A stretch of 29,209 nt of DNA from positions 1-29,209 of the IMG/VR virus record IMGVR_UViG_3300042090_000847; one strand, 5' to 3'. The translations under genes and the position numbers were made by a program. Shown piece by piece: positions 1 through 29,209 of the stretch. Positions within the stretch are counted from its first letter, which is position 1; each line of letters starts with the position of its first letter. Origin of the DNA: a virus. The notes under the pieces were generated by a model. The model saw only the letters and a program-made list of their open reading frames with translations. It ran no database searches and was not told the DNA's origin.

Positions 1-1
1 C

Positions 2-160
2 TCTGGCGATGGTTCTGGCGATGGCTCTGGCTCTGGCTCTGGCTATGGCTCTGGCTATGCCTCTGGCGATGGTTCTGGCGATGGCTCTGGCTCTGGCTCT
101 GGCTATGCCTCTGGCGATGGTTCTGGCGATGGCTCTGGCTCTGGCTATGCCTCTGGCTAA
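2..160 (+). CDS. Gly/Ser-rich (XG)n repeat protein, 5'-truncated
   Basis: This reading frame enters from the left edge and ends at a TAA at 158-160. All 52 visible residues are a dipeptide repeat in which almost every second residue is Gly, alternating with Ser, Asp or Tyr, with an occasional Tyr-Ala. The DNA is built from 6-base units such as TCTGGC, GATGGC and TATGGC. Its last codons and the downstream leader are identical to those of the next gene, so it is an upstream tandem copy whose start lies outside the window. Glycine-rich SG/YG/DG repeat proteins occur in phage genomes without a known role, and none is claimed here. Repeat length is probably unstable. Confidence 0.6.
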   Translation, partial: SGDGSGDGSGSGSGYGSGYASGDGSGDGSGSGSGYASGDGSGDGSGSGYASG

Positions 161-204
161 AAAAATCGAAAGGAAATCTTCATGAAACGCGATCAGAAGC
201 TGTA
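151..204 (+). repeat. 54-bp direct repeat, copy 1
   Basis: This copy is identical to 463-516, 312 bp downstream. It covers the last codons and stop of the repeat ORF, a seven-A tract, the ribosome binding site AAAGGA, and the start codon plus first codons (MKRDQKLY) of the following gene. It makes each (XG)n gene a cassette that recombination between copies could gain or lose. Confidence 0.95.
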
Positions 205-472
205 TGTAAGTTCTGGCTATGGCTATGGCTCTGGCTCTGGCGATGGCTCTGGCTATGGCGATGGCTCTGGCGATGGCTCTGGCTCTGGCTATGGCTCTGG
301 CGATGGTTCTGGCTATGGTTCTGGCTATGGCTATGGCTCTGGCTCTGGCTATACCTCTGGCGATGGTTCTGGCGATGGCTATAGCTCTGGCTATGGCTCT
401 GGCTCTGGCTCTGGCTCTGGCTATGGTTCTGGCTCTGGCAATGGCTCTGGCTCTGGCAATGGCTCTGGCTAA
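182..472 (+). CDS. Gly/Ser-rich (XG)n repeat protein
   Basis: A 96-aa protein that starts with MKRDQKLYVS and then consists only of alternating X-Gly dipeptides (X = Ser, Tyr, Asp, Asn, one Thr). The start is set by AAAGGA seven bases upstream of ATG. There is no signal peptide, and the chain would be hydrophilic and probably disordered or of unusual extended structure. The first eight residues are shared exactly with the next small gene at 494, which suggests that the repeat was inserted into, or fused behind, a copy of that gene's start. It is the second of at least two tandem copies. The function is unknown. A +1 frame is also open across the repeat but is treated as a by-product of the 6-base unit. 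Confidence 0.65.
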   Translation: MKRDQKLYVSSGYGYGSGSGDGSGYGDGSGDGSGSGYGSGDGSGYGSGYGYGSGSGYTSGDGSGDGYSSGYGSGSGSGSGYGSGSGNGSGSGNGSG

Positions 473-516
473 AAAAATCGAAAGGAAATCTTCATGAAAC
501 GCGATCAGAAGCTGTA
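463..516 (+). repeat. 54-bp direct repeat, copy 2
   Basis: Second exact copy of the segment at 151-204. It joins the end of the (XG)n gene to the start of the 23-aa ORF and carries the same ribosome binding site. Confidence 0.95.
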
Positions 517-565
517 CGCTGCGTTAATGGAGTATATGGATGATAACAATTTCAGGAGAGCGTGA
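494..565 (+). CDS. 23-aa small protein sharing the MKRDQKLY start
   Basis: A very short ORF with the same AAAGGA ribosome binding site and the same first eight residues as the repeat gene before it. It then continues AALMEYMDDNNF and ends RRA. Its TGA overlaps the ATG of the next gene (TGATG), which is typical of coupled phage genes. It probably represents the ancestral, repeat-free version of the duplicated start. It is short enough that translation is unproven. No function is recognised. Confidence 0.45.
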   Translation: MKRDQKLYAALMEYMDDNNFRRA

Positions 566-738
566 TGGGGATTGTTATCGAAGCCAGACGGGTTCAGCAT
601 ATGAATGTAGAATTAGAGCCAAGAGATTTTAGATTGGCGATTTCCAGCCCTGAAAACCTGAGCAAGTTTACCACCGAAGAACTCAAGACAATGATTGAAA
701 TGCTCCACGGAGAGCTTAACGCAAGGGAAAACACATGA
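565..738 (+). CDS. Small hypothetical early protein (57 aa)
   Basis: Starts MGIVIEARRVQHMNVELEP and carries a mixed hydrophilic sequence ending with a helix-like stretch (TTEELKTMIEMLHGELNAR). AGGAG six bases upstream of the ATG at 565 favours this start over the in-frame ATG at 601. It overlaps the gene before it by one base and the SSB-like gene after it by ATGA, so it sits in a translationally coupled early operon. No family is recognised. Its position directly upstream of an SSB-like gene suggests a role in replication or its control, which is inference only. Confidence 0.6.
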   Translation: MGIVIEARRVQHMNVELEPRDFRLAISSPENLSKFTTEELKTMIEMLHGELNARENT

Positions 739-1334
739 CTATCTTGATGCCAAAACAAAACGAATTCGAAAGCGTACCGGCAGGAAGCTACACGGCAGTC
801 TGCTACCGGGTCATTGACCTCGGAACGCAATTCTCCCCTTTCTATCAAAAATCCTCGCACAAGATTATGATTAGCTGGGAATTGTCAGAAAAGATGAAAG
901 ACGGACGGCCTTTCTCTATCCATAAGCGTTATACGCTTTCGGCCGGCAAAAATGCTGCCCTGCGAAAAGACCTCGAAAGCTGGCGGGGAAGGGCATTTAC
1001 GGAAGAAGAATTAGGCACATTCGATATTGGCCGCTTGATTGGGGTCGGCTGCATGATCGGCGTTTCAACCCGTACCGAAGGCGGACAGACCTATTCCGAT
1101 GTTTCCAGCATCATGCAACTTCCGAAGGATATTCCGTCACCAACATTGGAGAATGAGCCGTTTTATCTCTCCCTGAAAGAATTCAAACAAGACTTGTACG
1201 ATAAACTCTCCGACGGCATGAAAGCAGTCATCGCAAAAAGCCCGGAATATCAAGAGCTTAAAGGGGGACATAAAGTGGAGCAAAATACTCCTGACGCTCA
1301 TGATGGATTTGAAGATTCAAACATTCCATTCTGA
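735..1334 (+). CDS. Single-stranded DNA-binding-like phage replication protein
   Basis: A 199-aa protein. The N-terminal two thirds match a phage family that I recognise from its wording: PAGSYTAVCYRVIDLGTQ near residues 15-32, a SWELSE strand, RPFSIHKRYTLS, then LRKDLESWRGRAFTEEEL and LIGVGCMIGV. Such proteins lie in early replication modules and behave as candidates for OB-fold SSB or recombination partners. The protein ends with an acidic tail closing in DSNIPF, very like the DDDIPF tip with which bacterial and phage SSBs recruit partner proteins. A moderate ribosome binding site (AAGGG) precedes the ATG, which overlaps the previous stop. The SSB role is inferred from the family and the tip, not from an obvious SSB domain. 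Missing polymerase genes presumably lie beyond the left edge. Confidence 0.65.
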   Translation: MTILMPKQNEFESVPAGSYTAVCYRVIDLGTQFSPFYQKSSHKIMISWELSEKMKDGRPFSIHKRYTLSAGKNAALRKDLESWRGRAFTEEELGTFDIGRLIGVGCMIGVSTRTEGGQTYSDVSSIMQLPKDIPSPTLENEPFYLSLKEFKQDLYDKLSDGMKAVIAKSPEYQELKGGHKVEQNTPDAHDGFEDSNIPF

Positions 1335-1336
1335 TC

Positions 1337-1534
1337 ATGACTGAAATCAAACTGGAAGATAACGAAAACCATTTGGCCAGCATCGATGTAACCAAAATTG
1401 CCTACAGGCAAACCAAGGACGGGATGCTTGTGACATTCTCAATGTCACCTAATGATAATTTTGGCAAAATAGCCGAATTACCGCTCGGGTGGATCGGGCG
1501 CATTCATGTCACGGAGCCGAATATTGGAATATGA
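1337..1534 (+). CDS. Small hypothetical early protein (65 aa)
   Basis: Starts two bases after the SSB-like gene and ends with an ATGA overlap with the next ORF. The sequence has a beta-rich look (IDVTKIAYRQTKDGMLVTFSM, then LPLGWIGRIHVTEP) and no Cys pairs or membrane segment. No clear ribosome binding site is visible, so translation probably depends on coupling to the gene upstream. No known family is recognised, and its place suggests an accessory to the replication module. Confidence 0.6.
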   Translation: MTEIKLEDNENHLASIDVTKIAYRQTKDGMLVTFSMSPNDNFGKIAELPLGWIGRIHVTEPNIGI

Positions 1535-1680
1535 AGGCCGTATGGAAATACCACGGCACAAGAAAGTTTGAAGATCGAACCGAAGTTTATTGGCAATTGA
1601 TAGAAGTCACGCCAGAGCAATCGCCTCGTTTATCTGTGCCTCTGAATAGGGCTGTACACCATTCTCAAACTGAACGATAG
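1531..1680 (+). CDS. Small hypothetical protein converging on the lysis gene (49 aa)
   Basis: Begins MKAVWKYHGTRKFEDRTEVY. The ATG at 1531 is preferred over an upstream GTG-type start at 1489 because it forms an ATGA junction with the preceding gene. The last 74 bases run tail-to-tail into the 3' end of the minus-strand P5/lysozyme-like gene, so its final 25 residues are antisense-encoded with that gene. It is the last plus-strand gene before the late block. The function is unknown. Confidence 0.5.
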   Translation: MKAVWKYHGTRKFEDRTEVYWQLIEVTPEQSPRLSVPLNRAVHHSQTER

Positions 1681-2011
1681 CCGCCATGAGAAGATCGAGC
1701 TTTATATCGAGCGTCACGTTATAAATATCGTCAGGTCCGGCATTGCAGGATTTGCATACAAAATCAATGTAATCCTGAAGGGGGTTTTCGGAGGAAGGGG
1801 CGAATTTGGTGATATATTGCCGGATCGTGTTCAAGCCATAGATGTTGTAATAATTTCTCAGAAGAACCGCCAGTGCCCGCAGGCCGTAAACCGGATCGGT
1901 AAATTGCTCGAAAGTCCCGTCGGTATTCTGGTCCTCGGGAACCTTGCCTTTCCAGTTTTGATCGCTGATCCGCAGGTTGGCGGGGTTTTTGTTTTGGATT
2001 CCCCTACTCAT
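1607..2011 (-). CDS. P5/lysozyme-like peptidoglycan-active phage protein (probable endolysin)
   Basis: A 134-aa protein beginning MSRGIQNKNPANLRISD, with WKGK, a GTFEQFTDPVYGLRALAVLL block, YGLNTIRQYITKFAPSSEN and a C-terminal FENGVQPYSEAQINEAI. This set of motifs marks the phage family usually annotated as structural protein P5 or lysozyme-like, common in lysis cassettes of Proteobacteria phages. It lacks a signal peptide. Its place at the end of the late block, behind several small membrane proteins, is the usual endolysin position, so I favour a cell-wall-degrading role. I cannot point to a proven catalytic Glu. The start overlaps the end of the upstream 49-aa gene. Confidence 0.7.
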   Translation of the reverse strand: MSRGIQNKNPANLRISDQNWKGKVPEDQNTDGTFEQFTDPVYGLRALAVLLRNYYNIYGLNTIRQYITKFAPSSENPLQDYIDFVCKSCNAGPDDIYNVTLDIKLDLLMAAIVQFENGVQPYSEAQINEAIALA

Positions 2012-2153
2012 TAGCAGTTCCTGATAATTGGATGGTATAAGGATATAGAACTTTTACTGGCTTCTCGCTCATTATCCTGCCTATGAGAAACATTACCACA
2101 AAAAACCAGAGGCAATTAACCAGTATAACCTTGGTATATGGACGGATTTTCAT
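2004..2153 (-). CDS. Small single-span membrane protein of the lysis cassette (49 aa)
   Basis: Starts MKIRPYTKVI, followed by one hydrophobic segment (about residues 9-26, LVNCLWFFVVMFLIG) and a short polar tail. A strong ribosome binding site, GGAGG, lies upstream of ATG 2153. The 3' end overlaps the start of the P5/lysozyme-like gene by eight bases. Size, topology and position fit a small lysis-associated membrane protein such as a holin partner or antiholin. It is too short for a normal inner-membrane spanin, and no family is recognised. Confidence 0.7.
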   Translation of the reverse strand: MKIRPYTKVILVNCLWFFVVMFLIGRIMSEKPVKVLYPYTIQLSGTANE

Positions 2154-2164
2154 AAAAATCCTCC

Positions 2165-2374
2165 TTAGTTGCGAACCCCGGCAGGCTTCGGGAAATCGTC
2201 TGGAGACGAATAGGTCTTGATCGAACCTACCACATGCAGAATTTTCTCGCCCGTCTGTGCGATTTCAATTTGTGCGTCCGAGGCCAGTTTGGTCTGTTTG
2301 AGAAGGTTCACAAGCACGGCTCCAGCGAAATTTGGCAATTGCGCTAGGAGCCATGTGAGGAAGAGAGAAATCAT
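2165..2374 (-). CDS. Small membrane protein of the lysis cassette (69 aa)
   Basis: The N-terminus MISLFLTWLLAQLPNFAGAV is a hydrophobic, probably amphipathic membrane segment. The rest is polar and ends DDFPKPAGVRN. Its ATG directly follows the stop of the upstream 81-aa gene (TAAATG), so translation is coupled. It lies between the two-span holin candidate and the endolysin candidate. A second holin or a holin regulator is possible. The sequence alone does not decide. Confidence 0.65.
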   Translation of the reverse strand: MISLFLTWLLAQLPNFAGAVLVNLLKQTKLASDAQIEIAQTGEKILHVVGSIKTYSSPDDFPKPAGVRN

Positions 2375-2620
2375 TTACGACGAAGCCGGAGGTGTTGCGG
2401 TAGATGCAGGCGCGGAAGGGCTTGCGAGAGCATCCCCCAATAGAGCCGCAACAGCCTCTTGGCCTAATTTCTCAATAGCGGCAAAAAGCTGGGTTTCTAA
2501 AACAGGTAGAATGTCAGTAACGACAACATTATCCACATAATCGACGGCGGTTTTAAGAGCTGAAACAACGGCCTGCTCGGCTTCAGATGCGTCTTGTGAT
2601 ACAACAGTCCAGAAAGACAT
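2375..2620 (-). CDS. Hypothetical small late protein with Ala/Pro/Ser-rich tail (81 aa)
   Basis: The start MSFWTVVSQDASEAEQAVVS at 2620 is chosen because AGGAG lies five bases upstream. A longer frame reaching 2758 would run through the holin gene. The body looks like helices (VVSALKTAVDYVDNVVVTDI, then LFAAIEKLGQEAVAALLGDA), and the end is an ASPSAPAST-type low-complexity tail. There is no clear membrane span. It sits inside the lysis cassette, and the function is unknown. Confidence 0.65.
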   Translation of the reverse strand: MSFWTVVSQDASEAEQAVVSALKTAVDYVDNVVVTDILPVLETQLFAAIEKLGQEAVAALLGDALASPSAPASTATPPASS

Positions 2621-2634
2621 GGTAACTCCTGATT

Positions 2635-2832
2635 TTATGTTGAGGGGTTTCCGCCGTGAGGTATTACATAGACTGCTAAAGTGGACAGAAGAGTACTGAT
2701 GGCAATCCCTATCTCGGCGGGCATAGGGTGTGCCGGAACGAATATATCCCAAAACCAAACGATTATCAATGCCGAAGAACCTACTACTCCAGCGGCTATT
2801 GCCTTGTGATTGCCGGGTGTTTGGTTAGTCAT
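2635..2832 (-). CDS. Putative holin (two transmembrane segments)
   Basis: A 65-aa protein with a short polar N-terminus (MTNQTPGNHK), a first hydrophobic span at about residues 11-31 and a second at about 40-58 (IGIAISTLLSTLAVYVIP), ending HGGNPST. Two spans, small size and position before an endolysin candidate fit a class II holin, which would oligomerise in the inner membrane to time lysis. GGAG precedes the ATG, which overlaps the end of the 63-aa gene by eight bases. The holin call rests on topology and context, not on a specific family match. Confidence 0.6.
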   Translation of the reverse strand: MTNQTPGNHKAIAAGVVGSSALIIVWFWDIFVPAHPMPAEIGIAISTLLSTLAVYVIPHGGNPST

Positions 2833-3016
2833 GTTTATCTCCCAAGTTTAAAACCTGATATGCCCTATTTAGGGCATCCTGTATTTTAACCACGTGCGGC
2901 CTGTCTACCGCTTCTTCGTAAACCACCATCATGATCATCTCTGTCTCCAGATGCTTGCAAATCTCTTTTAACACTGTCCTTAATCTATCCTCTATGGTGA
3001 TAGGATGAGGGGTCAT
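2825..3016 (-). CDS. Small hypothetical protein in the lysis cassette (63 aa)
   Basis: Starts MTPHPITIEDRLRTVLKEIC at 3016, where ATG overlaps the stop of the upstream gene (ATGA). The open frame extends to 3199, but that part is antisense-free shadow of the upstream gene. The sequence is mostly predicted helix with charged residues and a Met-rich patch (ETEMIMMVVYEEAV). No membrane segment stands out. No family is recognised. Confidence 0.6.
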   Translation of the reverse strand: MTPHPITIEDRLRTVLKEICKHLETEMIMMVVYEEAVDRPHVVKIQDALNRAYQVLNLGDKHD

Positions 3017-3384
3017 TTTATGGCCTTTATGATACCTAGAGTAACGCCGATACTTATAAGAAACGTTAAGCAATGAGCGATAATCCCCGAAAACCTGAAG
3101 GCTCCGTTGCGTTCGCTTCTTTCGTCCCATAGAAGATCCAGTTTTTTCCGGTCTTCGGCGCGTCCCTTCAATATATCGGCGACTTTCTCGGCAATACAAT
3201 CTTCTGCGCCACCGATAGTATCGAGGATCTCCTCTTTCATGCCGCGCATATAGAGGAATTGCCGATCGAAACTGTCTTTATCTTCTTTTTTGTGTTCGCT
3301 CAGTTGAAAGGAAAATCCCGAGAGAGCATTCTGAATGCCTCTTTGTTCAGATTCAAGAACAGCCAAACGGGATTCACTATTCAT
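3013..3384 (-). CDS. XhlA-like coiled-coil protein with C-terminal membrane anchor
   Basis: A 123-aa protein. An N-terminal charged helical region (ESRLAVLESEQRGIQNAL and KKEDKDSFDRQFLYMRGMKE) is followed by a single C-terminal transmembrane segment at about residues 100-120 (IIAHCLTFLISIGVTLGII). This topology, a soluble coiled coil with a tail anchor, is that of haemolysin XhlA-type and other small phage lysis accessory proteins. It starts in a TAATG junction with the upstream exported protein. A role in lysis is likely from place and topology. XhlA homology itself is not shown. Confidence 0.6.
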   Translation of the reverse strand: MNSESRLAVLESEQRGIQNALSGFSFQLSEHKKEDKDSFDRQFLYMRGMKEEILDTIGGAEDCIAEKVADILKGRAEDRKKLDLLWDERSERNGAFRFSGIIAHCLTFLISIGVTLGIIKAIK

Positions 3385-3743
3385 TAGTAGCCATCGCTAC
3401 GTTTCGTTTTTACACCATTAACATACGCGATATAGGTTTTACCAAAACCATTACTTGAAAAAGTCTTGCCCGTCGGATCAGAGAAATGTTTATCCTGTGG
3501 GTAGGAATAATCCACTTTGGTAAACATATCTTCGAACGGCTTCTCCCCGGTGGTGTTCAGATAAGGAAACACCCACGCCACGAATACAGCGCCCGTCATA
3601 GCACCTACATTTGAAGCCACACTAAAACCCGCAAGATGAACCAGCGCTGAACCGGAAGGAACACAAAACGGGCAGAATGGATCTGCGTGCACGGGTTTCA
3701 TAAAAGCGAACATCATCATAAGAATCAGGGCTGCTTTTTTCAT
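3384..3743 (-). CDS. Exported protein with CPFC motif
   Basis: The start MKKAALILMMMFAFMKPVHA at 3743 gives a classic signal peptide with a VHA cleavage site. GGAG lies upstream. A longer frame to 3806 would run into the tail-fibre gene and hide the signal peptide. The mature part opens DPFCPFCVPSG, has a moderately hydrophobic segment at about residues 32-60 (NVGAMTGAVFVAWVFPYL) and ends in a polar region (GKTYIAYVNGVKTKRSDGY). The Cys-x-x-Cys pair would be in the periplasm. It lies between the tail fibre and the lysis genes. It could be a membrane-bound periplasmic protein, for example in superinfection control or lysis. No family is recognised. Confidence 0.65.
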   Translation of the reverse strand: MKKAALILMMMFAFMKPVHADPFCPFCVPSGSALVHLAGFSVASNVGAMTGAVFVAWVFPYLNTTGEKPFEDMFTKVDYSYPQDKHFSDPTGKTFSSNGFGKTYIAYVNGVKTKRSDGY

Positions 3744-3771
3744 AGTATTCTCCGTGTTTGAGTTGACTGCA

Positions 3772-4944
3772 CTACGAGATGCGTTGCCATAAGCCAGCTT
3801 GAGCATTAGAAATCACGCCATTTCCTACCACGGTTTGAAGAGCCTTCCATGTTCCTGTCAGACTGTCCGCTGTTGCTACGAATACTGGAGAACTTATTCC
3901 GCTGGAAACCAGGCATGTAAGATTTGCTGCTGAAGTTGTTGATCCCGCTGTTACCGTAACAGAAGTAACAAGTGCTGCCCAAATTATACTTCCAACTCCA
4001 AGCGGAGTCATCAATGGAATGGCCGAACCACTATCCTGAATATTTCCACTGCCATCAAATGATGCCAAATGCCCGGAAGTTAAGGAGCCGGTAACCGTAG
4101 CGACTTTTGTTGTGTTACCGCTTACTGCTGAAATTCCCTGTCCATTGATTTTAAATGTATTTCCGGTTCCTGCCGTATCATAGGTTTTATTGGTTAACGT
4201 GTCAGTGGTGGCTTTACCAATAAGTGTATCTGTAGCTGCTGGAAGGGTAAGGGTTCCAGACGCTGCAACATTAGGATTAAGCGTAGTTGTACCAGAGGTG
4301 CTTCCCGACAGAATAAGGCTTCCCAGCGTACTGGTCGCGGTTCCAAGGGTTAAAGCCCCGCTGCTAATTGAAATTTGGGCATTGCTGGAGACGGCGTTTG
4401 TGCTGGAAGCATAATAAGCCAGTTGACCAGAAGTACCCGAGTTAACGGTTCCGCTCCCGCTTGCGACGTTTACCCATGATGTAACGCCGCTGCCATTGGT
4501 TTGAAGCAGCTGACCGTTCGTGCCGTTAGTGGCGGGAAGAGTAAAGATAGTTCCTGTTCCTGCGGCTGCGGGAACCCCTATAACGCATGAGCCGCTGAGA
4601 GAGCCGTTAAGCTGAATGCCGGAAGCCATAAAGCCGCCGATAACATTCGAAAGACTGGCAAAGAATATCTGTCCGCCCGTAGGTTGATAGAAGCCCGTAG
4701 TCGCATCCCCGGCGACTGAAATGGCTGGAGTTGATGCGCTTCCTTGGTTAACGGAAAGCCCTACCGCAAAAGGTATCAGGGCCGTAGTGGTTTGCTGGCC
4801 GTCCTTTGTAATACATGTGGAAAGACCTGTAGCAAAGCCGTTGTCTTCGCCGTCCATACGCGAAGCGGTAATGTCGATATTGTTGTTTTTGTCATTAACC
4901 CAGTTGTAGATGCGGTTAAATGTGCCTGATCCGTTAAATGCCAA
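3772..4944 (-). CDS. Tail fibre protein
   Basis: A 390-aa fibre. The N-terminal head FNGSGTFNRIYNWVNDKNNN, then ITASRMDGEDNGFATGLSTC, is a conserved virion-binding start of podovirus tail fibres. A GDATTGFYQP motif follows near residue 80, and the shaft is a long repetitive Ser/Thr/Gly/Ala region. There is no S74 chaperone end, unlike the 372-aa protein upstream. The start is a TTG at 4942-4944, supported by a strong GGAGG six bases upstream and by the conserved N-terminus beginning exactly there. It should determine receptor binding. The 3' end reaches 3772, shortly before the exported-protein gene. Confidence 0.85.
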   Translation of the reverse strand: MAFNGSGTFNRIYNWVNDKNNNIDITASRMDGEDNGFATGLSTCITKDGQQTTTALIPFAVGLSVNQGSASTPAISVAGDATTGFYQPTGGQIFFASLSNVIGGFMASGIQLNGSLSGSCVIGVPAAAGTGTIFTLPATNGTNGQLLQTNGSGVTSWVNVASGSGTVNSGTSGQLAYYASSTNAVSSNAQISISSGALTLGTATSTLGSLILSGSTSGTTTLNPNVAASGTLTLPAATDTLIGKATTDTLTNKTYDTAGTGNTFKINGQGISAVSGNTTKVATVTGSLTSGHLASFDGSGNIQDSGSAIPLMTPLGVGSIIWAALVTSVTVTAGSTTSAANLTCLVSSGISSPVFVATADSLTGTWKALQTVVGNGVISNAQAGLWQRIS

Positions 4945-5080
4945 GATTTGCCTCCATATTTGAATTCATGCTACAATAAGGCATGACTTTACTTGCCATT
5001 ATAGGAACAGCGTTCCTACTGGATTTATTTGTCCCACTCATTTGGGTGGTTCTTACTTCAATATTTGATCGATAAATCAT
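4934..5080 (-). CDS. Possible 48-aa ORF filling the gap before the tail fibre
   Basis: Starts MIYRSNIEVRTTQMSGTNKS in an ATGA overlap with the stop of the internal virion protein gene, with AGGA close upstream. It ends 11 bases inside the tail-fibre gene. The tight overlaps at both ends look like phage gene packing, but the protein has no recognisable features and an odd Met-rich composition. The same 133-bp gap carries two short inverted repeats and, on the plus strand, a hydrophobic 30-codon ORF, so it may instead be a regulatory leader. Confidence 0.3.
   Translation of the reverse strand: MIYRSNIEVRTTQMSGTNKSSRNAVPIMASKVMPYCSMNSNMEANLGI
5002..5018. other. Perfect inverted repeat (7-bp stem, 3-base loop)
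   Basis: TAGGAAC and GTTCCTA flank the loop AGC. The repeat lies in the gap between the last internal virion protein gene and the tail fibre. No T-run follows on either strand, so it is not a standard intrinsic terminator. It could be an RNA processing or stability element for the late transcript, or a protein binding site. Confidence 0.5.
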
Positions 5081-6693
5081 TTTCCTAGCACTTTCTGAGC
5101 AAGAATAGATTTTGTTTCCGGGTCGGTGGCGTAGAGCAATTGAGCCAACCTCTCATTTTTTCCTGCCTGAAGAAAATCTTTAATAGCGTTTAAGGACGTC
5201 GCAGCTATTCCATGAATAGAGGTGGGAATTTCTGGCACCCCAGAGGTCAGGGTTTCTGCCGTATTTGATCCCCCCAATCCCCTCTGAGCAAGATCAACCC
5301 TGTTCTTTTCTTGCATAAGCATATCTGCAAATTTTTGTGCTTGTGTTGGATTATCAAGAATAGAGGCAACACTATTTTGGACTTTCCCCGTAGCAATTCG
5401 GGAGGCTGGACTGCCTGTTCCAAGAGGTGCGCCCATGCTTGAATCCGTTAGCCCTTGAGCATATCCAGCTCTTTGGTATGAAAGCTCATTAGGCGACATT
5501 TTATCGGCTGCGAGTTGCATAATGCTATCGGCTTTTTCTCCCGCTGCGCTTTTTGCAAGCTGCCTTCCCATTGAGAAAGCGTTTTCGGCCTGTTTATAAG
5601 CAGCCGAAACATTAAGGGCCTTCTGATATGCAGGATTAAGAGAACCAAGTTTGGAAGTAATTCCAGACTGTTGTTTTTCCAACACCTGATTGCCCGGCGA
5701 TGATGTCGCATTCCCAAACGGATCGCGCTCTACCTGATCGCCGATGTTTCTTTGAATTTGATGCATTGTTTCAATAGGAATATTTTCGTTGAGAGAGTAT
5801 TTTCCGTCTTCCCCCAGAGAAAGTCCCATCTGCTGAGGCGATTTATTTGAATTTGCGAAATCAATGGCCGTTTTTTGAAGGGCTGTTTGTCCTGCTGGTG
5901 TATTAATCACATCTGAAAATTCAGAAAGAGGAACAGTTTGCTGAAATGCTTCCTGATAAAGGGGAGCTGCCTGATCCTTCATTGCTTCAATATTTTGAAG
6001 CATGTTGCTAACATTTTCGGCAGGCTTTATGTTTTCACCAATAATTTCCGCTGTACGTTGGGGGGCAGCGGCCATACGCGCCCGCATGGCATCACGGGCT
6101 TCCTGCATTGCAGGTCCGGTTACCTTCGCTTGGGCTTGAGTTTGCATCCGAAGAGGATCACCCCCTAGTTCACCGGCAAAATCATCTGGACTACTTTTCA
6201 TTAAAGCATCTGCATATTGCTGAGGCGTTATTCCTGCGAGATCAAGCTTTTCTTTGATAAGTTTTATATCACCTGACGTGGGTGTTACTGTACTTTCTTC
6301 CACATCGGGAGCAGCAAGTTTTTCAGAACTTCCTTCGGGGACTGCCGCGAACGGCATAAGGACAGAAGCCAGATTATTAGCGGTTTCCCCAACTTTATCG
6401 GTAATAATAGGAGCGCGGTTTTCTCCCGCATTTGTCCACGGATTTTCCCCATAGACCATTTTAGACAAATGAACCAATGAGTTCACTGGCCCCCTGGCCG
6501 TATCGCCAAGAGCCTCTACAGCCGAGTTTCCAAGATTTTTTAGGGTGGGGTTATCGATAAATGAATTCGGATTTGCAGGAGTAGTCTGTTGCTGTCCATC
6601 AGGCACAAAACTGCTTTGCCATCCCTGCGCCTGTACCGCTGGAGGGGCTTGCGTTGTCCCGCTATCGGGTATGAAGCTATCCTGCCAGCCCAT
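5077..6693 (-). CDS. Internal virion / DNA ejection protein (538 aa)
   Basis: Two copies of a short motif open the protein: GWQDSFIPD at residues 2-10 and GWQSSFVPD at 24-32. A flexible linker follows, then a long, mostly helical body rich in Ala, Gln and Met without membrane spans or known catalytic motifs. Length, composition and place between the tail nozzle group and the fibre match the ejection proteins that podoviruses carry inside the capsid and inject with the DNA. It overlaps the upstream 505-aa gene by one base. The repeated N-terminal motif may dock it to a partner virion protein. That is inference. Confidence 0.65.
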   Translation of the reverse strand: MGWQDSFIPDSGTTQAPPAVQAQGWQSSFVPDGQQQTTPANPNSFIDNPTLKNLGNSAVEALGDTARGPVNSLVHLSKMVYGENPWTNAGENRAPIITDKVGETANNLASVLMPFAAVPEGSSEKLAAPDVEESTVTPTSGDIKLIKEKLDLAGITPQQYADALMKSSPDDFAGELGGDPLRMQTQAQAKVTGPAMQEARDAMRARMAAAPQRTAEIIGENIKPAENVSNMLQNIEAMKDQAAPLYQEAFQQTVPLSEFSDVINTPAGQTALQKTAIDFANSNKSPQQMGLSLGEDGKYSLNENIPIETMHQIQRNIGDQVERDPFGNATSSPGNQVLEKQQSGITSKLGSLNPAYQKALNVSAAYKQAENAFSMGRQLAKSAAGEKADSIMQLAADKMSPNELSYQRAGYAQGLTDSSMGAPLGTGSPASRIATGKVQNSVASILDNPTQAQKFADMLMQEKNRVDLAQRGLGGSNTAETLTSGVPEIPTSIHGIAATSLNAIKDFLQAGKNERLAQLLYATDPETKSILAQKVLGK

Positions 6694-8210
6694 TATCTGA
6701 TTTGACCTCCGGATTGGATTAGATCAGGGAGGTGCCCGGCAGAAACGCGCCCAAGATTTCCCTGCGGATCCACCACACTAATCATACTATCAGGCGAAGC
6801 GTGCTGAGCAATCATCTGTGCCAAGCTCATATCGGAGGGGGCAGCAGGATCGCCGTATTGCCTGCGCTGTTGAGCCAAGGATTTGAGGTTAGAAATATAT
6901 TGATCCTGAAGGCCATTAATGGCATTTATTTTTGTAGGTGCGGGGTCGGCAGGATTTAATCCACTTGCACCGGAAGCGATTGACTCAAGGAATTTATTGC
7001 CGCGCAGTCCTGCTAATTGAGGGCCTAGTTCGCTTAAAACCCCCTGCTTCGTGGCTTGATCGATTATCTGGTTGGCTGTGGCGCGTCCCGGTTCAAACAT
7101 TTGCCCTGCGCCCGTGCGGGCATAGTTGCGGGCATAATCGCCAAATGTGCTTCCGGGTTCTTCCTCGCTAACGCCACCGCCGTAGCTTGAATTTTTAGCT
7201 GCATCGCGCAACTGACTAAATCTCTGCATGGCGCGGGGAAGATTGCTTGCCGCGACATTAAATGTTTTTGTAGCATCCGCTAAATTCTTCCCCGTATCTT
7301 CAGCCTGCGATGCCGCTCCCGCACCAGCAGCTTCCGCCATTTTTGTTTGCCCCGCTTTTGCCGCAGCAAGCCGCGCCTCAAACTGATTGTTCGTTTCACC
7401 CGGCAATGGGCTTGGCATCGCCTGTGGAGGCTGCGGAGGAATAGAGGCCGATGGCGGCGGTGCGGGAATCCCACCGGCAGGAGGAGCGCCAAGGGCTGAA
7501 GCAGGCATAGGGGGGACGGCTTGCGGAGGAATTTGTGCTGCTCCCGGCCCCATAGGCGGATTACCCATAGGAACATTCGATCCAATCGGAAGGCCCATAG
7601 AAGCCCTTTGCGTATCAATGGGCGGCGTAGCCATGCCGTTTTGCTGGCGATAGGCGGCTGCGGCATCCGGAGGAGGGGTTTGCTGCGGAGGCTGTCCGAC
7701 GCCAGGAGGAAGAGTGCCAACAGGCGCATTTCCGGCTGCTGCTGTTCCTACGCCGGTATTGTAGCCCTTCATGCCAGCCGCGTATTGGCCGTATAATTCA
7801 ACGGCGGCGCGGGGACTTCCGCCCATACTTTCGGGCAAGGAGAGACGATTAAAAAGAGCCTGCGTGGGAGGGGGCATAGCTGCCACGATAGGATCGGATT
7901 GCTGAGATGATTGTTGTGGTGCGTTTGGATCAGGTGCAAGTGCGTTTGCAAGGGCTGCATTCGCATCATTCTGCTGGTATTTTCCTGAGACAAGATCGGC
8001 CATCTTCGCCAATCCCTCAAGCGGCGAAATCTTATAACCGACGCCTCCGATGCTTCGGCCCTCCGTGCTAATTGGGGACTGTCCTTGCTGAAGAAGCGCA
8101 TTTGCCATTGCTTCTTGTTGTTGGGCAGAAAGAAGTTTTGCCTGCTGAGCTGGCGTAATGCCCATAGCTTGTGCAGTTAATTGCCACGGGATGGGGCTAT
8201 TATCAGCCAT
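6693..8210 (-). CDS. Internal virion / DNA ejection protein with Pro-rich linker (505 aa)
   Basis: The N-terminal part (about 1-100) is Gln/Ala rich (ITPAQQAKLLSAQQQEAM). Residues of about 160-270 are a long Pro/Ala/Gly linker with repeated PPQ and MP stretches. The C-terminal half is helical and polar (RNYARTGAGQMFEPGRATAN) and ends DLIQSGGQIR. Such low-complexity, disordered proteins are typical of the ejection cargo of P22- and SU10-like phages. It overlaps its neighbours at both ends by single bases, so the three internal proteins are coupled. Base composition of the linker is locally GC-rich, which produces long false frames on the other strand. Confidence 0.65.
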   Translation of the reverse strand: MADNSPIPWQLTAQAMGITPAQQAKLLSAQQQEAMANALLQQGQSPISTEGRSIGGVGYKISPLEGLAKMADLVSGKYQQNDANAALANALAPDPNAPQQSSQQSDPIVAAMPPPTQALFNRLSLPESMGGSPRAAVELYGQYAAGMKGYNTGVGTAAAGNAPVGTLPPGVGQPPQQTPPPDAAAAYRQQNGMATPPIDTQRASMGLPIGSNVPMGNPPMGPGAAQIPPQAVPPMPASALGAPPAGGIPAPPPSASIPPQPPQAMPSPLPGETNNQFEARLAAAKAGQTKMAEAAGAGAASQAEDTGKNLADATKTFNVAASNLPRAMQRFSQLRDAAKNSSYGGGVSEEEPGSTFGDYARNYARTGAGQMFEPGRATANQIIDQATKQGVLSELGPQLAGLRGNKFLESIASGASGLNPADPAPTKINAINGLQDQYISNLKSLAQQRRQYGDPAAPSDMSLAQMIAQHASPDSMISVVDPQGNLGRVSAGHLPDLIQSGGQIR

Positions 8211-28529: not shown

Positions 28530-28745
28530 ATGCGTAAATTCCTCAACAAATGCCTCTGGATCACAATGCCCCCGGCATTCGCCATCGTACTGGCTTTTGC
28601 CTGTAACTGCGCCCTCAAAAGTGACGGGTTTTATATAGGCAATCCTCGCATTACCGTGGTCTATGAGTACGATCACCGTGCTTTCGATGCCGCCACGCAA
28701 GTCGCCAGCAACCGGCTTCCTGTGCCGATGAGGGGGAAGCCATGA
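28530..28745 (+). CDS. Small early membrane protein (71 aa)
   Basis: Starts MRKFLNKCLWITMPPAFAIV with AAGGA upstream. A single hydrophobic segment at about residues 9-28 (LWITMPPAFAIVLAFACNCA) anchors it in the membrane, followed by a polar domain (YIGNPRITVVYEYDHRAFDA). The Cys-rich end of the hydrophobic segment could suggest a lipoprotein-like or signal-anchor start, but there is no clean lipobox. Its stop overlaps the next start (ATGA). The role is unknown; early membrane proteins of phages often act in superinfection exclusion. Confidence 0.6.
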   Translation: MRKFLNKCLWITMPPAFAIVLAFACNCALKSDGFYIGNPRITVVYEYDHRAFDAATQVASNRLPVPMRGKP

Positions 28746-29209
28746 CCCAAACCACCAAAATAATGAAACTCACGAAAAAGCAAGAAGCTCGGTTTCCCGA
28801 GTTCGTGGATAAATGGATCAAGATCGGCCTTTCCACTGAACCAGCTAATCGGGAGAAGTCAGAAAAGGCTATTCGCGGTCTATATGGCTTGGCAAAACTG
28901 AAAGAACCTAAAGTTATCTGGATTCCGTGTCCTCTAAGCGGTGCAATGAGTGCCGTTCTTTATGCCTATATCCGAAATGGGAAAGTGAAACCGAAAAAAG
29001 ACGCGGTTGACAACGCGGTTTACAGCGCGGTTGAAAGAGCGGTTGACAACGCGGTTTACAGCGCGGTTGAAAGAGCGGTTGACAACGCGGTTTACAGCGC
29101 GGTTGGCAGAGCGGTTAACAGCGCGGTTGACAACGCGGTTTACGGCGCGGTTGGCAGAGCGGTTGACAACGCGGTTCACGGCGCGGTTGGCAGAGCGGTT
29201 AACAGCGCG
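28742..29209 (+). CDS. AVxx four-residue repeat protein, 3'-truncated
   Basis: Runs off the right edge after 156 codons. The N-terminal 86 residues are ordinary: KLTKKQEARFPEFVDKWIKI, then GLSTEPANREKSEKAIRGLY, and PKVIWIPCPLSGAMSAVLYA. They resemble a widespread family in which an 'LT..QEARFPEFVDKWI.IGLSTEPANR' domain precedes short repeats. From residue 88 every four residues read Ala-Val-x-x, with xx = DN, YS, ER, GR, NS, YG, HG. ATGA overlap with the previous gene sets the start. The function of the family is unknown. The total repeat length cannot be seen here. Confidence 0.75.
   Translation, partial: MTQTTKIMKLTKKQEARFPEFVDKWIKIGLSTEPANREKSEKAIRGLYGLAKLKEPKVIWIPCPLSGAMSAVLYAYIRNGKVKPKKDAVDNAVYSAVERAVDNAVYSAVERAVDNAVYSAVGRAVNSAVDNAVYGAVGRAVDNAVHGAVGRAVNSA
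29003..29209 (+). repeat. 12-bp tandem repeat (36-bp higher-order unit)
   Basis: Units begin GCGGTT and have six variable bases. Three consecutive units make a 36-bp block: 29003-29038 and 29039-29074 are identical, and 29075-29110, 29123-29158 and 29159-29194 differ from them at a few positions, with a single extra 12-bp unit at 29111-29122. The array continues to the window edge. Confidence 0.95.

Follow-up and report, generated by a model that had tools for sequence, protein, structure and literature searches.

X-Gly array genes of phages: a widespread class with a shared alphabet, rapid turnover and a DUF6948 partner

Tandem arrays at the left edge of the window

The virus contig analysed here over its full 29,209 bases, hereafter the window, has its left edge within an open reading frame (ORF) of the form (X-Gly)n, and a second such frame follows. 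The locus raises the question of what kind of gene this is and what its repeats are for. We found that the window arrays are members of a widespread, undescribed class of phage genes, here called XG array genes. The features at the left edge are:

2..160, + strand: XG array gene, copy 1; C-terminal part with stop, 5' end lost at the contig edge
151..204, + strand: 54-bp direct repeat, copy A; exact match
182..472, + strand: XG array gene, copy 2; 96 aa, stop 470-472
463..516, + strand: 54-bp direct repeat, copy B; exact match
494..565, + strand: repeat-free ORF, start in common with array copy 2; 23 aa, stop 563-565
565..738, + strand: 57-aa ORF; ATG start, also callable from GTG at 562
735..1334, + strand: phage replication initiation protein, NGO0469 family; NCBIfam NF046043, E 1e-59

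The original prediction, made from this DNA alone, described tandem (X-Gly)n ORFs joined by identical 54-bp segments that carry the stop, a ribosome binding site and the first codons of the next copy. This layout was confirmed: the longest exact repeat (151-204/463-516) is 54 bp long and comprises an array end with its TAA, an AAGGA box, and the ATG and opening codons of the ORF that follows. The same start indeed also serves the 23-aa ORF, whose ATG at 494 lies inside repeat copy B and opens the sequence MKRDQKLYAALMEYMDDNNFRRA. Copy 1 (ORF 2-157) reads SGDGSGDG...SGYASG from base 2 and stops at TAA 158-160, and copy 2 runs from ATG 182 as MKRDQKLYVSSGYGYG...SGNGSG. The description of both copies as X-Gly and nothing else was slightly too strong. 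X-Gly units predominate, but three Gly positions of copy 1 are GCC (Ala) codons, and copy 2 has VSS at its start and YTSG/YSSG interruptions. The X codons are TCT (16), GAT (6) and TAT (4) in copy 1 and TCT (24), TAT (11), GAT (6), AAT (2) and four others in copy 2, where Gly is written GGC (37) or GGT (4). By these counts glycine alternates with S, Y or D over many units, and with a TRF score of up to 450 the arrays are far beyond chance.

Downstream, the stop of the 23-aa ORF overlaps the next ATG (TGATG, as read from the sequence), and the 57-aa ORF overlaps the start of the 735-1334 gene (ATGA). These overlaps and the NF046043 match place the arrays directly upstream of a replication gene, which is context of the arrays and lies outside the array gene proper. 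Searches of the window for Rfam families and tRNA genes found none, PADLOC returned nothing for 5 proteins, and positions 1-8000 had no match at the DNA level among 50,697 phage records. A search for the left edge in other contigs found no further copy. The MKRDQKLY-type start, which the original prediction had proposed to seek in related phages, gave no exact match in other viral contigs when searched as a degenerate DNA pattern.

The right edge of the window (28742-29209) also breaks inside a repeat gene, of 12-bp unit and the form (X-X-Ala-Val)n. A contig of the same phage that extends past this edge (L462, record G051) completes a 428-aa repeat protein, and its array diverges partway from that of L463 (G052). 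This gene may be a second hypervariable array with another alphabet.

Spread, alphabet and partner of the XG array genes

A nine-unit DNA pattern and the codon-neutral pattern GYGSGDGSG each gave at least 120 stretches in the viral collection, and the viral contigs with XG arrays number well over 100; cultured phages have them too, Iodobacter phage phiPLPE and phage Ymer among them. Among prokaryote genome contigs the GYGSGDGSG pattern gave a further 65 stretches, spread over many phyla, some of them unrelated proteins or other frames. Most of the loci come from metagenome assemblies, in which repeats can be misassembled. The layout of array, linker and array recurs with other linkers in unrelated viruses: L018 has four identical 73-bp linkers between its arrays, L055 has three of 41 bp, and L007, L097, L163, L183 and L193 are built likewise. 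Among arrays of at least 25 units, the median length was 34 units (range 25 to 69).

Many arrays continue into a C-terminal domain. When loci were selected by this domain alone, the array stood in frame ahead of it in 63/66, mostly preceded by a short ME...I..FL leader, and this in-frame fusion settles the array frame as real coding sequence. The type I domain (LTGSC..GR motif; L120:4775-5236 and 26 relatives, alignment A1) was modelled with a pLDDT of 95.3 and had no convincing PDB match; at the sequence level it weakly matched plant mitochondrial uS5m (E 0.0012). A type II domain (KWKGERWWIVAL...KYGALKREI) is fused to the arrays of L103, L135, L149, L177, L180 and L208 and had no match in the phage records. 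In L092 the fused domain is DUF7666, and the array of L298 follows a similar start. At L003:3647-4453, close to the replication gene of that locus, lies a gene of similar appearance with an IGSSGYSAQ-type repeat. Relatives of the array-linked domain carry automatic names such as Lamprin, E3 ubiquitin-protein ligase and ribonuclease inhibitor (BFVD A0A8S5SZK3 and A0A8S5TKP0; OQ789245.1), which are probably low-complexity or repeat artefacts, and we rejected Pfam matches of the arrays to TrAA12 and keratin-type models as low-complexity artefacts.

The alphabet is narrow. We examined two sets of loci picked without reference to the array, one by the C-terminal domain and one by the upstream gene DUF6948 described below. 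S, Y and D together made up 95% of units in the domain set (46 arrays) and 87% in the DUF6948 set (64 arrays). No array in these sets lacked S, Y or D (0/46 and 0/64), and 2/151 did so in the pattern-chosen set. Mean residue entropy was 1.48 bits in the domain set and 1.46 bits in the DUF6948 set, the maximum for three letters being 1.58, and third-base entropy was only 0.08 and 0.29 bits, respectively, at X codons and 0.12 and 0.33 bits at Gly codons. Between arrays the same residues are spelled with different codons, the third base being T or C and glycine GGC, GGT, GGG or GGA. Among pattern-chosen arrays, the X third base was T in more than 95% of codons in 47/119 and in less than 5% in 62/119, and T usage tracked locus G+C content (r = -0.64). 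S, Y, D and Gly were each written with a single codon in 72/113 pattern-chosen arrays, 30/42 of the domain set and 19/54 of the DUF6948 set. The last figure indicates that the pattern searches favoured intact arrays and that many arrays are older than the pattern-chosen set implied. Ala, one step from both Ser and Asp, was rare (9/2,317 units in the DUF6948 set), and the arrays contain almost no Lys or Arg. Tracts of one letter, (SG)n and (AG)n for example, also occur, in 36 ORFs.

The partner gene was recognised by reading the ORFs upstream of arrays. All ten upstream proteins tested matched DUF6948 (Pfam PF22253, a domain of unknown function), nine of them above the curated cut-off. With a search profile built from 18 upstream proteins, we found that 166 of the 183 arrays with enough upstream DNA are preceded on their own strand by DUF6948 within 700 bp, at a median gap of 28 bp; it lay downstream in 4/177. 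Of the 17 arrays that lack it upstream, five have it at another place in their locus, and seven resemble cellular proteins or frames open by chance. Conversely, all 80 DUF6948 loci inspected, the best 80 of 563 viral relatives, had an array downstream, which in one case was an aged array truncated at the end of its contig. L210 has the two fused as one ORF. A comparison of neighbour families near and far from arrays, made with crude ORF calling, showed no strong enrichment (110/408 near and 110/614 far ORFs) and missed DUF6948. Within one literature collection, we found no paper naming DUF6948 or DUF7666, and searches of the same collection on repeats, glycine and condensates found nothing on XG array genes. 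The S/Y/D alphabet, the DUF6948 partner, the scarcity of synonymous variation and the commonness of the class all go beyond what the original prediction saw.

For the window phage itself, the pairing with DUF6948 is a prediction, since the contig starts within the array. Neither the window nor two fragmentary contigs from this phage (terminase protein 100% identical) show DUF6948. It was found in one of ten records searched, a 39.3-kb virus with a terminase 43% identical, in which an array gene follows directly; three longer records (G056, G058 and G059) had none.

Turnover of arrays and flanks

Eleven phage-isolate records carry DUF6948 followed by an S/Y/D-Gly gene, which is 'hypothetical' where annotated and otherwise unlisted. 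In seven Pectobacterium phages of one genus, the array ORFs measure 270, 258, 222, 222, 204, 162 and 222 bp, lengths that differ by multiples of 6. The flanks of Ymer and Amona are identical over 1,063 bp (560/560 upstream and 503/503 downstream), and their arrays, of 32 and 29 units, are no more alike in order than shuffled ones. The array is the same in the separate isolates Ymer and Abuela, so that its reading is reproducible. The downstream flank of Taid is 100% identical over 450 bp. According to the paper on these phages (PMC11445585), Sabo differs in its downstream gene and the genomes were sequenced by Illumina and assembled with metaSPAdes; a word search of the paper returned no 'glycine'.

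Metagenomic pairs behaved as Ymer and Amona did (L337/L338, L379/L381, L314/L315, L325/L327 and L334/L335). Among the 15 untruncated pairs from all sets with both flanks at least 97% identical, eight had different arrays and seven identical ones, and some of the latter may be a single phage that was sampled twice. Within the least diverged pairs the differences are indels rather than substitutions, and those of L337/L338 and L325/L327 are of whole units. The decayed arrays of L345 and L346 show point changes at the same unit number, which fits a change process that requires intact repeats. Tandem copies recombine too, in that arrays 3, 4 and 5 of L018 have end blocks in common. L137 and L138 match exactly in their upstream flanks and cease to match within the array, as though gene modules had crossed over there. 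Array turnover in relatives is far faster than that of the flanks. The original prediction that repeat number changes was borne out by the whole-unit differences in relatives; its picture of a length-variable protein was right as to length and understated the change, the order being scrambled as well.

In a simulation, arrays gained and lost units in phase by duplication and deletion and also underwent point mutation; indels outnumbered mutation attempts by about 1,000 to one, and a composition rule set by hand kept S, Y and D each at 10 to 65%. The simulated arrays had a residue entropy of 1.45 and a third-base entropy of 0.05, with single-codon arrays in 28/40 and internal block repeats in 9/40; the pattern-chosen sets gave 1.52, 0.08, 72/113 and 27/100. 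Without the composition rule, at least one letter was lost in 39 or 40 of 40 runs. Rapid unit turnover with selection on composition is thus sufficient to reproduce the pattern, though it is not thereby proven, and targeted mutagenesis is not needed for the fit. Recent block duplication as the sole generator was rejected, a significant internal block repeat being present in only 27 of 100 arrays with 25 or more units. We propose that in-phase slippage or recombination would be frequent, on the order of a thousand events per point mutation, that such indels would purge synonymous variants and scramble the order, and that selection would retain all three letters. Since arrays gain and lose entire 6-bp units, they always stay in frame. 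In bacteria, simple-sequence contingency loci likewise change repeat number rapidly by whole units within one gene; however, the 6-bp XG unit never switches frame, and it is order and composition that change, not expression. The array ORFs of the isolates compared all stay open.

Function of the array and its partner

Several other processes could be imagined behind these arrays. Diversity-generating retroelements, or another form of targeted mutagenesis, might write the letters, as the variation sits in the first two bases of the X codon of a phage gene, much as such elements produce it, and one of 50 array-bearing viruses does carry a reverse transcriptase. Yet RVT_1 was present in just that one of the 50 virus records, many of them fragments, and in none of the 11 phage records, the least diverged pairs differ by indels, and the simulation reproduces the pattern unaided. 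We rejected retroelements for the array class on the near absence of reverse transcriptase and regard targeted mutagenesis as extremely unlikely. (The sole carrier is L290, in virus record G025, that of L071; E 4.9e-23.) We likewise hold it quite improbable that the arrays are neutral repeats or assembly artefacts devoid of function. Arrays do break assemblies, lying within 12 bp of the locus edge in 27/164, 6/52, 13/78 and 12/50 cases, as at the left edge of the window, and single-letter tracts exist. However, unselected arrays lose letters in simulation and real ones keep them, the arrays are paired with DUF6948, and one array recurs in both Ymer and Abuela. Nor do we give much credence to a role for the repeat at the level of DNA or mRNA, as a recombination hot spot or RNA structure with the protein as a by-product. 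The break in similarity inside the L137/L138 array would suit it, as would the short linkers, which invite recombination; against it, codons vary between arrays and residues do not, Ala is rare despite its closeness to Ser and Asp, and the arrays are fused in frame to folded domains.

An unlikely but weightier alternative is a binder in which fast reshuffling is itself selected, a variable surface that would supply a phage population with many variants to direct at a target in the host or in a rival. Antibody loops favour Tyr, Ser, Gly and Asp, so the array alphabet is that of binding loops, and turnover is very fast with residue entropy near its maximum. A selected binder should nevertheless hold successful variants for a while, whereas no order is kept even between the closest relatives; array length varies widely, and the constant DUF6948 partner suggests a constant task. 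The suggestion of a surface or binding protein in the original prediction found no support, and order is not conserved in the way that a specific binding site requires.

Composition, by contrast with order, seems to be kept under selection, to judge from the sequences compared. As composition is kept and order is not, we infer a low-complexity chain, not a folded protein or a specific site. The XG protein would be multivalent, with Tyr as stickers, Ser and Gly as spacers and Asp for solubility. By composition, the arrays have the aromatic stickers and Gly/Ser spacers, in no conserved order, of condensate-type domains. They recall the prion-like domains of the FUS type, with their [G/S]Y[G/S] motif, in being Gly/Ser chains with regularly spaced Tyr in which order matters little. 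XG arrays differ from these in their strict two-residue period, in Asp as a third letter and in the near lack of Gln, and we claim no kinship.

The partner DUF6948 is a small protein with a predicted Sm/LSm-like barrel. A monomer model of it (pLDDT 94.5) was searched with Foldseek, and all 50 matches listed were of Sm/LSm type (best E 6e-3). The best realigned structure match had Z 7.1, below the tool's comfort level of 8, with an rmsd of 2.9 over 71 residues; at the sequence level DUF6948 had no PDB match at E up to 1. With such middling scores, the predicted fold is best described as resembling Sm, that is, Sm-like rather than an Sm protein. Some eukaryotic Sm and LSm proteins carry low-complexity, glycine-rich tails. 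The likeness of DUF6948 to the Sm/LSm/SmAP proteins lies in this predicted fold, and in phages the low-complexity part is usually a separate gene. The XG chain might gather or tether its Sm-like partner together with a ligand, possibly RNA, early in infection. Duplicate arrays joined by a linker such as the 54-bp segment of the window could raise the dose, with copies gained or lost through recombination between linkers.

Taken whole, the account of a class of XG array genes, paired with DUF6948, turning over by units and encoding a low-complexity chain selected for composition, stands in our estimate at an even chance of being correct. Its boldest form, that a granule-like system of two genes is spread among phages of many bacterial phyla, made of an Sm-fold DUF6948 protein and a tyrosine-sticker low-complexity protein continually rescrambled in order at constant composition, we put forward tentatively, inclining somewhat against it at present. 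If the account is right, a common and undescribed phage gene pair would join an Sm-like protein to a low-complexity chain, and its numerous independent sequences, alike in composition but not in order, would allow a test of how far composition fixes the function of disordered proteins. The array would also be a very fast marker for distinguishing phage strains, and it would explain why assemblies of such phages, the window included, break at this gene. Should the granule-like system be real, it would be a phage counterpart of eukaryotic RNP granules and a natural experiment on selection for composition alone in a disordered protein.
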